Assembly (NCBI GenBank): GCA_963169355.1
Contig: CAUJCR010000031.1
Span: 1-64,000, forward strand
DNA length: 64,000 nt
Direction of reading: 5' to 3'
DNA from: Bacteroidota bacterium
GTDB taxonomy: Bacteria; Bacteroidota; Bacteroidia; B-17B0; Aurantibacillaceae
Position numbers and translations under genes: made by a program. Shown here piece by piece: positions 56,543 through 63,044 of this stretch; position 1 is the stretch's first letter, and each line of letters starts with the position of its first letter. The notes under the pieces are model-generated. The model ran no database searches and was not told where the DNA came from. It saw only the letters and a program-made list of their open reading frames with translations.

Positions 56543-56575
56543 TTTGGAGATGTAAATATTTATACCTTAACTTTG
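56543..56575 (+). promoter_or_regulatory. promoter of the methionine operon (TTTG-N21-TAACTTTG)
   Basis: TTTG at 56543-56546 and an exact TAnnTTTG box (TAACTTTG, 56568-56575) are spaced by 21 bases, a good Bacteroidota -33/-7 promoter. It places transcription about 30 bases upstream of the riboswitch. Confidence 0.65.
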
Positions 56576-56607: not shown

Positions 56608-56736
56608 AATTTATAAAGAAGTGGCGAGAGAATAGGCTCGATGACCCACTGGCAACCAACTAAAAGTTCTGATAACACAGAATTGGAAAACCGGTGCCAA
56701 ATCCTACTCCGATGAAAAACGGAGACAAATAAATTA
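56608..56736 (+). promoter_or_regulatory. SAM-I-type (S-box) riboswitch
   Basis: The segment contains the S-box landmarks in order: AAGAAGTGGCGAGAG, GGCTCGATGACCCACTGGCA followed by ACC, a variable hairpin (TTCTGATAACACAGAA), CCGGTGCCAAATCCT, and ACTCCGATGAAAAACGGAG. The likely outer stem pairs AATTTAT (56608-56614) with ATAAATT (56729-56735). S-adenosylmethionine binding should lower expression of the methionine genes downstream. The leader ORF start lies only about 15 bases beyond the aptamer, so the switch could control its translation directly; I see no intrinsic terminator as expression platform. Confidence 0.87.
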
Positions 56737-56750
56737 AAAAACTAAAGAAA

Positions 56751-56876
56751 ATGAAACACACAACAGCAACTAAAATCTCAGAATCTCAAAGAGAAGATTT
56801 AAAAGAAGTATCTAATTCATTTTTATTCTCATCAATGATGATGTTATACGGTATGTGCTGTTGTTGCATGTGCTAG
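56751..56876 (+). CDS. 41-residue Met/Cys-rich leader ORF
   Basis: An ATG 15 bases after the riboswitch opens a 41-codon ORF. The first part is hydrophilic (KISESQREDLKEVSNS). The last 13 residues read MMMLYGMCCCCMC, with five Met and five Cys, directly before TAG. Methionine and cysteine are exactly the products of the genes downstream (metY, metX, hom, cysD, cysN). The natural reading is a leader peptide whose translation senses Met and Cys charging, on top of the SAM riboswitch. A functional metal- or sulfane-binding peptide is an alternative. I do not know a named family for it. Confidence 0.7.
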   Translation: MKHTTATKISESQREDLKEVSNSFLFSSMMMLYGMCCCCMC

Positions 56877-56919
56877 TGTATCCCTTTTTATTTCGTGGAT
56901 ATTATCTATTGACTCTTAG

Positions 56920-58389
<1,470 letters not shown>

Positions 58390-58403: not shown

Positions 58404-59444
58404 ATGAGTCATAAATTATTAGTTCACAACAAAAGATTTCTTTTAGAAAGTGGGTTATCACTTCCAAAATTAGAAATTGCCTATCACACATTTGGTAAGT
58501 TAAATGCTGATAAAAGTAATGTGGTTTGGGTAACACACGCACTTACCGCAAATAGCAATGTGTATGACTGGTGGAAAGGATTATTTGGAATAAATGACTT
58601 GTTTAATCCTAATGATTATTTTGTAGTGTGTGCTAATAATTTAGGCTCTTGTTATGGAACAACTGGCTCACTTAGTATTAATCCAGATACAAACGAACCA
58701 TGGTATGCTTATTTTCCTGAAATTACAATAAGAGATATGGCTAATGCCCTTCAAGTATTAAAGGAACATCTTGGAATTGAAAAAATTCACACTTTAATTG
58801 GCGGTTCGCAAGGAGGTCAAATTGCTTTAGAGTGGTCGTTACTTCAAAAAGATATTTCGGAGCATCTTATTTTAATTGCAACCAATGCCCAACATTCATC
58901 ATGGGGTGTTGCATTTAATGAGTCGCAGCGCTTGGCAATAAAAGCTGATAGAACTTATTTTTCTAATTCGCTACATGGAGGTGAAAAAGGCCTTGTGGCA
59001 GCAAGAAGTATCGCTTTGTTAAGTTATAGAAGTTGTGAAACTTATGTAAAAACACAATCACGGGATAAGTATCTAAGTAGCAATGCGTCTTCTTATCAAC
59101 GTTATCAAGGAGAAAAATTAGTTAAACGTTTTAATGCTTATGCTTACGTAAAATTATCGGAGGCAATGGATTCACATGATGTTGCAAGAAATAGAGGCGA
59201 CGATGTTGTTAGCGTTTTAAAAAACATACAGGCTAAATCATTAGTTGTTGGTGTAAAAACGGATATTTTGTTTCCTGTATCTGAACAACGGTTTATTGCT
59301 GAAAATATTAAAGATGCCGTATATCAAGAAATAGACTCTTTATATGGACATGATGGATTTTTAATTGAAACAAAACAATTATCGGAGCACATCAAACAAT
59401 TTTATCAAACAAGTACCATAAAAATTAAAGAAGAAGTTATTTGA
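58404..59444 (+). CDS. metX: homoserine O-acetyltransferase
   Basis: A 346-residue alpha/beta-hydrolase-fold acyltransferase that activates homoserine for sulfhydrylation. Motifs: VWVTHALTANSNVYDWWKGL, VVCANNLGSCYGTTGSLSIN (the typical NxxGxxxGxxGP-like region, here with S-L), nucleophile Ser135 in LIGGSQGGQIALEWS, and the acid/base region near the end: VGVKTDILFPVSEQ (Asp) and YGHDGFLIE (His). Normal length. Between metY and hom it gives an intact route from homoserine to homocysteine. Acetyl rather than succinyl donor use is inferred from family and from metY. Confidence 0.93.
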   Translation: MSHKLLVHNKRFLLESGLSLPKLEIAYHTFGKLNADKSNVVWVTHALTANSNVYDWWKGLFGINDLFNPNDYFVVCANNLGSCYGTTGSLSINPDTNEPWYAYFPEITIRDMANALQVLKEHLGIEKIHTLIGGSQGGQIALEWSLLQKDISEHLILIATNAQHSSWGVAFNESQRLAIKADRTYFSNSLHGGEKGLVAARSIALLSYRSCETYVKTQSRDKYLSSNASSYQRYQGEKLVKRFNAYAYVKLSEAMDSHDVARNRGDDVVSVLKNIQAKSLVVGVKTDILFPVSEQRFIAENIKDAVYQEIDSLYGHDGFLIETKQLSEHIKQFYQTSTIKIKEEVI

Positions 59445-59454
59445 AAAATAAATT

Positions 59455-60705
59455 ATGAATAAGAAATTAAAAATTGGATTATTTGGTTTTGGCTGTGTAG
59501 GGCAAGGGCTTTATCATGTATTAAATAATAGTACAGGTTTTAAAGCTGATATTGTGAAAATTGCCGTAATAGATAAAACTAAAACCAGGAGAGTTGAAAG
59601 TACATTAATTACCTACAATAAATGGGAGATATTGGACAATTCTGAAATTGATGTCGTTGTAGAGTTAATTGATGATGCCGATGAAGCCTTTTTAATTGTA
59701 AGTGAGGCTTTAAAACGAGGTAAACATGTCGTAACAGCTAACAAAAAAATGCTAGCCCAACATTTAGAAGAATTATATCATTTGCAAAATGAATATAATG
59801 TATCATTATTATACGAAGCTTCTGCTTGCGGAAGTATTCCAATTATTCGAACCTTAGAAGAGTATTTTGATAATGAAGAATTGAAAAAGGTTACGGGTAT
59901 ATTTAATGGTACTACAAATTATATTTTAACTAGAACCTTGGCGGAGAATTTGTCTTATCAAGAAGCACTATCTCAAGCACAGCTTAAAGGATTTGCAGAA
60001 TCTAATCCAGTGAATGATGTAGAAGGATTTGACCCCAAGTTTAAAGCAATTATTATTGCGCTACATGCTTTTGGCTTAATTATTAAACCTAATGAGGTAT
60101 TAAATATTGGAATTACCACTTTACATGAAAGTGATATTAAATATGCCAATGAAAAAGGATATAAAATTAAATTAACGCCTCACATTCATCGTATCGCTCA
60201 TAATAAAGTATCTGTGTTTGTAGTTCCGAGTTTTATAAAATCACATAATCATTTATATAATGTAGATAATGAGTTTAATGGTGTCATTGTAGAAGGCGAT
60301 TTTTCTGGTGAACAGTTTTTTCAGGGAAAGGGCGCTGGAAGTTATCCAACTGGAGCGGCTGTACTTTCGGATATTTCTGCCTTATCTCATGGTTATAAAT
60401 ATGAGTTTAAAAAGTTTGCGCAAAATCAAATTCCGAAATTTACCAACGATGTTATACTTGAGGTATATTTTAGATATAACTCGCCTGAAGATTTGCGACA
60501 TCTACAATTTGAAGAAATAACCGAGAAATATAATGGAAATGATTTTCATTACGTGATTGGTAAAATTCATCTTGAACAATTATTTGAGTATCGGGAATAC
60601 ATACTTACCAATCATCTTTTTATTTCACTATTAAATGAGCGAGTTGAGTTGTCAAATGACGGAAATCGTAAAACAGTTTTTAAAAAGGAACTTCAAATTT
60701 TCTAA
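59455..60705 (+). CDS. homoserine dehydrogenase
   Basis: A 416-residue NAD(P)-dependent enzyme that reduces aspartate semialdehyde to homoserine, the substrate of metX. The N-terminal Rossmann motif is LKIGLFGFGCVGQGLYHVL, followed by VVELIDDADEAFLIVSEALK, RGKHVVTANKKMLAQHLEE (conserved T-x-N-K) and YEASACGSIPIIRTLEEYF, GIFNGTTNYILTRTLAE. DPKFKAIIIALHAFG carries the conserved Lys region. GKGAGSYPTGAAVLSDISAL closes the cofactor site. It is a monofunctional form without an aspartokinase domain. Ten bases after metX, same operon. Confidence 0.92.
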   Translation: MNKKLKIGLFGFGCVGQGLYHVLNNSTGFKADIVKIAVIDKTKTRRVESTLITYNKWEILDNSEIDVVVELIDDADEAFLIVSEALKRGKHVVTANKKMLAQHLEELYHLQNEYNVSLLYEASACGSIPIIRTLEEYFDNEELKKVTGIFNGTTNYILTRTLAENLSYQEALSQAQLKGFAESNPVNDVEGFDPKFKAIIIALHAFGLIIKPNEVLNIGITTLHESDIKYANEKGYKIKLTPHIHRIAHNKVSVFVVPSFIKSHNHLYNVDNEFNGVIVEGDFSGEQFFQGKGAGSYPTGAAVLSDISALSHGYKYEFKKFAQNQIPKFTNDVILEVYFRYNSPEDLRHLQFEEITEKYNGNDFHYVIGKIHLEQLFEYREYILTNHLFISLLNERVELSNDGNRKTVFKKELQIF

Positions 60706-60836: not shown

Positions 60837-61745
60837 ATGAGCCAACAGCTTGATTATTTAGACTTTTTAGAATCTGAGGCAATACATATTCTACGCGAAG
60901 TAGCTGGTCAGTTTGAACGACCTGCTTTATTGTTTAGTGGAGGGAAAGATAGTACGGTTTTGGTACACCTAGCACTCAAAGCATTTCGACCAGGTAAATT
61001 CCCATTTCCGTTATTACATATTGATACAGGACATAACTTTGAGGAAGCCATTATTTTTAGAGATCAACTGGTTAAGCAAATTGATGAAAAATTGATTGTT
61101 CGTTATGTAGCAGATACTATAAAACGCCATAATTTACAAGATGCTAAGGGTAAATTTCCGAGTAGAAACGTATTGCAAACAAATACTTTATTAGATACAA
61201 TTGAAGAATTTGCCTTTGATGCTTGTATTGGTGGTGCTAGACGTGATGAAGAGAAAGCACGAGCTAAGGAACGTGTGTTTTCTGTACGAGATGAGTTTGG
61301 GCAATGGAACCCAAAATCACAACGCCCAGAATTATGGAATATTTATAATGGGAAAATCAATAAAGGCGAGAATGTGAGGGTGTTTCCTATTAGTAATTGG
61401 ACAGAGTTAGATGTATGGAATTATATTAAACGAGAGCAAATTTCGCTTCCTTCTATTTACTTTACACATGAACGCGATTGTATTGTGTTAAAGAATGGAC
61501 AATTAATGAATGTTAATCAATTTGTAAAAATAGATGAAACAGATATACTTGTTCGTAAAAATGTAAGATACCGCACTGTTGGCGATATGACTTGTACAGC
61601 AGCTATTGAGAGCGTAGCTTATACGGTAGATGACATTATTAAGGAATTGGAAAATACTAAAATTAGTGAGAGAGGAGCTACACGAATGGATGATAGAATT
61701 AGTGAAGCGGCAATGGAGGATAGAAAGAAAAATGGATATTTCTAA
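60837..61745 (+). CDS. cysD: sulfate adenylyltransferase subunit 2
   Basis: A 302-residue PP-loop ATP pyrophosphatase-type subunit that makes adenosine 5'-phosphosulfate from sulfate and ATP in sulfate assimilation. The PP motif is LLFSGGKDSTVLVHLALKAF (SGGKDS at 34-39), followed by PLLHIDTGHNFEEAIIFRDQ, DACIGGARRDEEKARAKERV and FPISNWTELDVWNYIKREQI. The C-terminus VRYRTVGDMTCTAAIESVAY and ATRMDDRISEAAMEDRKKNG completes the family. Length equals E. coli CysD. Followed after 54 bases by cysN. Confidence 0.97.
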   Translation: MSQQLDYLDFLESEAIHILREVAGQFERPALLFSGGKDSTVLVHLALKAFRPGKFPFPLLHIDTGHNFEEAIIFRDQLVKQIDEKLIVRYVADTIKRHNLQDAKGKFPSRNVLQTNTLLDTIEEFAFDACIGGARRDEEKARAKERVFSVRDEFGQWNPKSQRPELWNIYNGKINKGENVRVFPISNWTELDVWNYIKREQISLPSIYFTHERDCIVLKNGQLMNVNQFVKIDETDILVRKNVRYRTVGDMTCTAAIESVAYTVDDIIKELENTKISERGATRMDDRISEAAMEDRKKNGYF

Positions 61746-61799
61746 GCAAAGAGTAATTAATGAATAATGATTAACATATTTTATTTTTATAAATAACTA

Positions 61800-63044
61800 A
61801 TGGATCTACTTAGATTTTTTACTGCAGGAAGTGTTGATGATGGGAAAAGTACGCTCATTGGTCGGTTGTTATTTGATAGCCACTCTATCTCAACGGATAT
61901 AATTGAAACATTAACAAAACAGAGTAAGAATATAAAAGACGACAATGCCTTTAATTTAGCTTTATTAACGGATGGATTGAGAGCGGAAAGGGAACAAGGG
62001 ATTACAATTGACGTAGCTTATAAGTATTTTACTACATCAAAACGAAAATTTATAATAGCTGACACACCAGGACATGTGCAATACACGCGTAATATGTTTA
62101 CAGGGGCATCATTAGCTCATTTAGCTTTGCTCTTAATAGATGCTAGGCATGGTATCACCGAACAAACAAAACGACACGCTGTTATTTCATCTATTTTAAG
62201 AATACCAAATGTACTTGTGTGTGTAAATAAAATGGATTTAATTAATTATAGTGAACATAAGTTTAATGACATAAAAGATGAATTTATAAAATTCTCTAAT
62301 CCATTAAATTTATCAAATATTACTTTTATCCCTATGAGTGCCTTACTGGGAGAAAACGTGGTAACACAGTCTAGTAAGTTGGAATGGTATAAAGAAAAGT
62401 CGTTACTAGATTATTTAGAAACTGTTGGGATTAATCCGTCTCAAGAATTACTATCGTCTAGATTTCAGGTGCAATATATTATAAGACCAGAAACGAATGT
62501 TTTGCACGACTATAGAGGCTATGCGGGAAAAGTGCTTTCGGGTAAATATTATGTAGGACAAAAAGTAAAGATCTTTCCTGGAAATTATGATACTGAGATT
62601 ACTTGTATTGAAATGAATCAACAAAATGTAACTGAGGCATGTGCAAATTCTTCTGTTATCCTTCATTTAAAAGATGCTATAGATGTGAGTAGAGGTAGTT
62701 CTATAATTCCAATAAATGAGTTACCAAATATAAGCAACGAATTTACTGCAACCTTGTGTTGGATGGATGATAGTTCGTTTGTAAAAGGTCAAAAATTTTA
62801 TCTTCAACAGAATTCATATAGAACAAAAGCAGTTATTAAAGAAATAGTATATAAAATAAATATTCACTCATTTACACCAATAGAAGGCGAATCTAACATA
62901 CAATTAAATGATATTTGTAAAGTTGTAATTAAAACAGCGGAATCAGTTTGTTACGATAAATTTACCGAAAATCGAAACAACGGTTCATTTATCTTAATAA
63001 ATGAAAACACACATAATACTGTAGCCGCAGGTGTAATAGAATAA
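61800..63044 (+). CDS. cysN: sulfate adenylyltransferase subunit 1 (GTPase)
   Basis: A 414-residue translation-factor-type GTPase that drives APS formation with CysD. Motifs: G1 FTAGSVDDGKSTLIGRLLFD at 8-27, G2 region REQGITIDVAYKYFTTSKRK, G3 IADTPGHVQYTRNMFTGASL, G4 VCVNKMDL. Two beta-barrel domains follow (FQVQYIIRPETNVLHDYRGY, AGKVLSGKYYVGQKVKIFPG; then SNEFTATLCWMDDSSFVKGQ). It lacks a fused APS kinase (CysC), so PAPS or APS reduction genes must lie elsewhere. Somewhat shorter than E. coli CysN (475). A terminator follows. Confidence 0.96.
   Translation: MDLLRFFTAGSVDDGKSTLIGRLLFDSHSISTDIIETLTKQSKNIKDDNAFNLALLTDGLRAEREQGITIDVAYKYFTTSKRKFIIADTPGHVQYTRNMFTGASLAHLALLLIDARHGITEQTKRHAVISSILRIPNVLVCVNKMDLINYSEHKFNDIKDEFIKFSNPLNLSNITFIPMSALLGENVVTQSSKLEWYKEKSLLDYLETVGINPSQELLSSRFQVQYIIRPETNVLHDYRGYAGKVLSGKYYVGQKVKIFPGNYDTEITCIEMNQQNVTEACANSSVILHLKDAIDVSRGSSIIPINELPNISNEFTATLCWMDDSSFVKGQKFYLQQNSYRTKAVIKEIVYKINIHSFTPIEGESNIQLNDICKVVIKTAESVCYDKFTENRNNGSFILINENTHNTVAAGVIE

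Follow-up and report, generated by a model that had tools for sequence, protein, structure and literature searches.

The SAM-I riboswitches that precede metY and metX in Bacteroidota are mostly followed by a conserved short open reading frame (ORF) that ends in a run of cysteine codons. The cysteine identity of these codons is under selection, the RNA is structured beyond what the amino acids account for, and the ORF is in fixed linkage to aptamers of the metY/metX type. It is very probably a translated, cis-acting leader, and the explanation that we favor as a whole, with fair confidence, is an attenuator-type leader peptide gene with the SAM riboswitch as its 5' UTR. The locus described below, which stands before genes for making homocysteine, lies in a stretch of 64,000 nucleotides that is referred to as the window.

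The locus and its genes

The features of the locus are as follows:

56543..56575, +, likely candidate promoter read from the sequence, with TTTG at 56543-56546 and TAACTTTG at 56568-56575
56608..56735, +, predicted SAM-I (S-box) aptamer (RF00162)
56608-56614 / 56729-56735, +, aptamer helix P1, made up entirely of A-U pairs (read from the sequence)
56736..56750, +, leader initiation region, A-rich and with no Shine-Dalgarno sequence
56751..56876, +, leader ORF of 41 codons with a Met/Cys-rich tail (sequence and comparison)
56856..56873, +, putative regulatory codons TGC TGT TGT TGC ATG TGC (C36-C39, M40, C41)
56845..56880, +, hairpin formed by the Cys/Met codons, the stop codon and 4 nt further, about -12.7 kcal/mol
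56881..56893, +, U-rich tract TCCCTTTTTATTT behind the hairpin, candidate weak intrinsic terminator
57043..58389, +, metY, O-acetylhomoserine/O-acetylserine sulfhydrylase, start MSTQQ (TIGR01326, 655 bits)
58404..59444, +, metX, homoserine O-acetyltransferase (by best match)
59455..60705, +, homoserine dehydrogenase, hom (NF004976)
60837..63044, +, cysD (60837-61745; TIGR02039) and cysN (61800-63044; TIGR02034)

Promoters of Bacteroidota have the pattern TTTG / TAnnTTTG, which the candidate promoter matches. It lies upstream of the sole Rfam match in the window, the SAM-I riboswitch RF00162 at 56608-56735; this match spans positions 1-108 of the covariance model, its full length, and at 66.5 bits clears the gathering score of 44.4. 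As the aptamer ends at 56735 and the ORF starts at 56751, the spacing to the ATG is the 15 bases that had been claimed from the sequence; this interval contains no terminator, in contrast to the metH copies described below. Translation of 56751-56876 likewise bears out the ORF as originally delimited (MKHTTATKISESQREDLKEVSNSFLFSSMMMLYGMCCCCMC, ending in GMCCCCMC), including the five Met and five Cys residues among its last 13 codons (MMMLYGMCCCCMC). The ORF family has no match in Pfam or NCBIfam. Family matches agree with the predicted succession of metY, metX, homoserine dehydrogenase and then cysDN, with the qualification that MetX scores below the curated cut-offs (340 vs 500; 318 vs 331), although the MetX models outscore all others by a wide margin. 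Co-transcription of cysD and cysN with hom is uncertain because of a 131-nt gap after hom. An upstream ATG at 56974 is in frame with metY (MIQARSIYN...; 56974-57042); this in-frame start is not kept in the sister genome L041, which keeps a hairpin of the same region, TTATGTTATGATAC/GTATTTATAACGTAA.

Recurrence of the riboswitch and leader pair

The original prediction implied that relatives retaining the riboswitch should also retain the ORF and its tail. We grouped 76 SAM-I aptamers, from 60 related genomes and the window's own, by their downstream gene; the window's genome has two, one before metH and the other before metY. A Cys-tailed ORF stands behind 24 of the 27 metY/metX aptamers, versus none of the 44 before metH and none of the five before other genes. 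At the metY/metX aptamers the leader ATG lies 2-15 nt 3' of the aptamer (mode 13), and this spacing is kept across families. One of the three exceptions, L042 (genome G016), has a leader lacking the Cys run; in this natural variant the aptamer and the MKHT start are kept, the run has decayed to MVACMWCGMRQFGFSF, and metX comes directly next. Another, L093, is an additional aptamer of genome G050, whose metY aptamer does have a leader. Judged from these counts, the leader ORF behind the aptamer is not a chance occurrence, and the outcome that would have counted against the original prediction, loss of the ORF or its tail where the riboswitch persists, did not arise.

A pattern search of genome contigs, which required a TGY run and left its frame free, returned at least 119 stretches. 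Among the matches listed, the run is in frame with the first ATG past the aptamer core in 98 of 119, several of the out-of-frame cases being chance hits in other phyla; the matches listed are mostly from Bacteroidota, with Mucilaginibacter, Pedobacter, Pontibacter, Fulvivirga, Chitinophaga, Haliscomenobacter, Lewinella, Psychroflexus and Marinoscillum among them. RF00162 was present in all 16 of the pattern-search loci that were checked. Among metX operons sampled across the class, the leader is found in five of the seven that have a SAM aptamer, the remaining two having no clear tail. These comparisons indicate that the same pair of SAM riboswitch and Cys leader is found across much of Bacteroidota.

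Selection on the tail codons

In groups of close relatives the tail Cys codons have a pS of 0.236 and a pN of 0.029 (pN/pS 0.12), the corresponding ratios being 0.76 in the leader body and 1.34 in other tail codons, and a comparison finds tail Cys replaced in 4.0%, tail Met in 11.7% and other tail residues in 42% of cases; as the pairs overlap, these counts show the direction of selection rather than its exact significance. The third bases of the tail Cys codons vary while the amino acid stays. Across 107 leaders, chosen partly on Cys content with Met content playing no part, the 14 residues at the end are 44% Cys and 12.7% Met, as opposed to 0.5% and 0.6% in the body, the sequence of which is poorly conserved and differs from genus to genus. 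One hallmark of ribosome-mediated amino-acid attenuators is present in the form of a conserved short ORF, clustered Cys codons and selection on Cys identity. Cysteine sensing, with the Cys codons as the conserved sensor, is well supported by this comparison, and it is likely that the leader senses Cys charging.

The tail had originally been proposed to sense Met and Cys alike. The Cys half of that proposal stands on the pN/pS of 0.12; for the Met half conservation is less strict, with tail Met exchanged in 11.7% of comparisons and missing from 14 of the 107 tails. Met is nevertheless a possible additional sensed amino acid: its enrichment in the tail over the body and its lower rate of replacement than that of other tail residues lead us to put the reading of Met charging, which is compatible with our preferred explanation, only a little short of an even chance. 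The Met codons are also located within RNA helices (UUCAUGAUG with CAUCAUGAA; AUGUGC with GCAUGU), and their conservation could arise from this. In Flavobacterium johnsoniae AUG is under-represented near start codons (PMC6847099), which may account for the Met-poor body.

RNA structure over the tail

The region from -63 to +22 around the stop was recoded synonymously, with the protein kept, in the 107 leaders. The native RNA is more stable than its recodings (mean z -1.06, t -11.2, n=107), and a hairpin with U-tract reaches a score of at least 18 in 35% of leaders compared with 6.7% of shuffles, the t and z of such tests overstating independence because the sequences are related. A further hallmark of attenuators, RNA structure that overlaps the regulatory codons and exceeds what the peptide sequence accounts for, is seen over the 107 leaders, the window being weak when taken alone (z -1.1, p 0.12 for its own leader). 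These results indicate that codon choice favors a hairpin formed from the Cys codons and the stop region, with a U-rich tract behind. They also bear on the idea that the peptide works in trans, for instance through its Cys run binding metal or thiols. Cys-rich peptide ends are able to bind metals, but the body shows little conservation (pN/pS 0.76) and varies between genera, and codon choice tracks RNA structure; we consider a role in trans very improbable.

In the window's family the Cys/Met codons make up the loop and arms of the hairpin, the stop codon falls within the 3' arm and U-rich sequence comes after; nearly all family members have a counterpart, with more than one type of pair at several positions. 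In the window the U-tract begins 4 nt beyond the stem, a strict terminator scan scored none, and the hairpin and U-tract score 17.7, with six shuffles reaching up to 17.2. The candidate terminator at this locus is weak, and we rate intrinsic termination there, as against translational or Rho-dependent control, as evenly balanced. In Mucilaginibacter two partners are available to the post-stop CACGU, the Cys codons and an ACGUG farther downstream, which is how an attenuator usually looks; such an alternative is unclear in the window. When all clades were combined, leader/post-stop helices reached no more than z 3.1 within 20 nt and z 1.4 within 40 nt, and RNAalifold on a mixed family alignment and on Mucilaginibacter gave a weak signal or pairs in doubtful places.

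A second kind of pairing is found in most family members, which have an extra ORF of 68-81 aa between the leader and metY/metX that is lacking in the window's genome. The codons just 5' of the tail pair with the start region of this ORF in covarying helices of unrelated sequences: TTCATGATG/CATCATGAA, TTCATAATG/TATTATGAA, CCATCTGTTG/TAACAGATGG, TAGTACTTC/GAAGTACTA, TTTTCATGT/ACATGAAAA and TTCATTGTTT/AAACAATGAA in different relatives. Cognate pairs exceed swapped ones with z 6.2 for 25 sequences, and with z 5.4 and 0/20,000 permutations for 14 representatives. For loci of the window's type, without the 78-aa ORF, a long-range start-codon helix was sought and set aside as unsupported (z 1.1, no signal); as the window's genome lacks this ORF, the helix does not seem to apply there. 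The extra protein itself (L043:4495-4728 on the minus strand and about 24 related loci) is conserved, with the pattern YGxAQRGG ... NILxSxE ... and an N at the C-terminus. It has no relative in Pfam, NCBIfam or PDB, and its structure model is helical and of low confidence (pLDDT 66, pTM 0.33).

These two structures bear on a tentative alternative, in which translation coupling or Rho replaces intrinsic termination, the Cys codons set the dwell time of the ribosome, and translation of the leader either protects the RNA against Rho or frees the start codon that follows. The covarying start-codon helix and the weak terminator of the window's genome fit with it, as does the proposal of Rho for the terminator-less poly-Cys leaders of Actinobacteria (PMC1262725). 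However, the Cys-codon hairpin with its U-tract beats shuffles across many clades, and the start-codon helix is undetected outside the set with the 78-aa ORF.

Riboswitch output and proposed mechanism

The metH riboswitch of the window's genome belongs to the same aptamer family as the metY copy, but the two groups of aptamers differ in what follows them. Behind the metH aptamers of the same genomes lies a CCCTTC..GAAGGG-U hairpin, the ordinary S-box arrangement; this simple motif is present in 21 of 44 metH copies versus none of 27 metY/metX copies, which thus lack the canonical S-box termination platform, and inspection by eye for a P1-controlled terminator found none. In short, a terminator platform without a leader ORF marks the metH copies, and a leader ORF without such a terminator the metY/metX copies. 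Initiation in F. johnsoniae responds to RNA structure up to about 20 nt from the start codon and favors A at -3 (PMC6847099). Most simply, SAM would act on initiation of the leader, and we think it rather likely that the riboswitch works in this way.

We propose that at high SAM the all A-U P1, which ends 15 nt 5' of the ATG, would be stabilized and leader initiation hindered; with no ribosome on the leader, the Cys-codon hairpin beside the U-tract would form and expression would stop. At low SAM the leader would be translated. If Cys-tRNA, and perhaps Met-tRNA too, were scarce, the ribosome would slow on the four-Cys run and cover the 5' arm and loop of the hairpin, which would then not form, leaving metY-metX-hom on, as geometry, selection and analogy suggest. 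The hairpin would likewise be covered by a ribosome that has reached the stop codon, and good discrimination would therefore need particular kinetics. In relatives with the 78-aa ORF, whose helix between the pre-tail codons and the start codon is indicated by covariation, a stalled ribosome might open that helix as well.

Alternatively, the two elements might be independent sensors in one 5' UTR, the riboswitch acting on transcription or mRNA stability through an unrecognized platform and the leader being a separate Cys attenuator. Poly-Cys leaders without a SAM riboswitch do occur in other families, for example before cysH (MMCCCCCCC) and metY, and the riboswitch and leader are therefore separable modules. 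Nevertheless, the interval from aptamer to ATG contains neither a terminator nor a competing hairpin, and the spacing of 2-15 nt is retained across families; independence appears unlikely to us. If instead leader initiation is the output of the riboswitch and the ribosome its platform, SAM and Cys-tRNA would form a two-input gate. As the pair recurs across the phylum, these bacteria probably read SAM and then cysteine supply in succession on a single RNA. The original prediction of two sensors in series stands to the extent that comparison supports a conserved leader, read by the ribosome and arranged in series with the riboswitch, whereas the SAM-first order of gating is only plausible. The broadest statement describes a composite regulator found across the phylum, whose riboswitch lacks a platform of its own and has initiation of a poly-Cys leader as its output and the ribosome as its platform, with start-codon unmasking in one family; in our view this may equally prove right or wrong.

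Relationship to known systems

The kind of system is known; what is new is the combination of SAM riboswitch and poly-Cys leader, and its spread. As was noted with the original prediction, Cys-rich leaders were reported earlier in Actinobacteria, where poly-Cys leaders were predicted in 2005, with no terminators and with Rho proposed (Seliverstov 2005, PMC1262725), and Cys-responsive poly-Cys leader ORFs, termed leaderless in the title, are attributed to mycobacteria (Canestrari 2020, cited in PMC13236596). These leaders resemble the window's leader in the short ORF, the Cys run at the stop and the sulfur-assimilation genes downstream, and differ in having no SAM riboswitch, no terminator hairpins (2005) and, in mycobacteria, leaderless ORFs, whereas the window's leader has a riboswitch as its 5' UTR and a hairpin made from the Cys codons.

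Other systems share single elements. The uORFC-8-2 of cysS in Rhodobacterales, with predicted Cys attenuation, has Cys codons in the first stem and a U run at the end, but only two Cys codons, a different target gene and phylum, and no riboswitch (PMC8632094). The SAM-II riboswitch of Sinorhizobium metA similarly lies beside an AUG and ahead of a more distant terminator, but is of another class, lacks Cys codons, and its first AUG is natively unused as a start (PMC9373788). The tandem attenuators of Salmonella mgtCBR are also reported to pass several signals through short leader ORFs on one transcript; the signals are other ones and there is no SAM aptamer (PMC3641672). For Bacteroidota, leader-peptide attenuation receives general mentions for F. 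psychrophilum and B. thetaiotaomicron, and we found no prior report of poly-Cys leaders in this phylum, or of a SAM riboswitch joined to one, in a literature of incomplete coverage.

On the comparative evidence the phenomenon is more general than the window alone could reveal. To our knowledge, Bacteroidota have no Shine-Dalgarno leaders and few of their RNA switches have been studied. If correct, our proposal would provide a widespread and easily tested riboswitch that acts via a leader peptide in this phylum, would show how SAM and cysteine, sulfur pools that are linked, can be weighed on one transcript, and would imply that many unannotated ORFs of 30-50 codons in these genomes are real. 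Natural variants are at hand in the form of leaders without the riboswitch, riboswitches without a clear leader and the degenerate leader L042 (G016), and culturable genera with such variants include Mucilaginibacter, Pedobacter, Chitinophaga and Pontibacter.

Other targets

Further combinations of SAM riboswitch and poly-Cys leader precede genes for sulfite reductase, PAPS reductase, an OsmC protein, a TonB-dependent receptor and an antiporter. Going by the genes downstream, sulfur is the theme common to the leader-controlled genes and cysteine the shared signal. Two poly-Cys ORFs of the window's genome (C8:150726 and C51:33593) were set aside, there being no sulfur genes downstream of them.

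Poly-Cys leaders (e.g. MTPIKQHHSSIASNRMMCCCCCCC) without a riboswitch stand before a cysH-like gene in L283, L284 and L285, where a promoter-like element, TATATTTG, lies shortly before the ATG; the transcripts are therefore perhaps near-leaderless. In L195, L193, L202, L116 and L199 a SAM aptamer or its core, together with a poly-Cys leader, precedes TonB-dependent receptors, a Na+/H+ antiporter-like protein and a RimK-like ATP-grasp protein, and these targets are possibly unrecognized genes of sulfur uptake or metabolism. SAM aptamers without a leader, from the family and the class (L082, L083, L067 and L102), precede a gene for a protein that starts with RFSxRVxNYVKYRPxYP...ADIGSGTG, which is probably a SAM-dependent methyltransferase.
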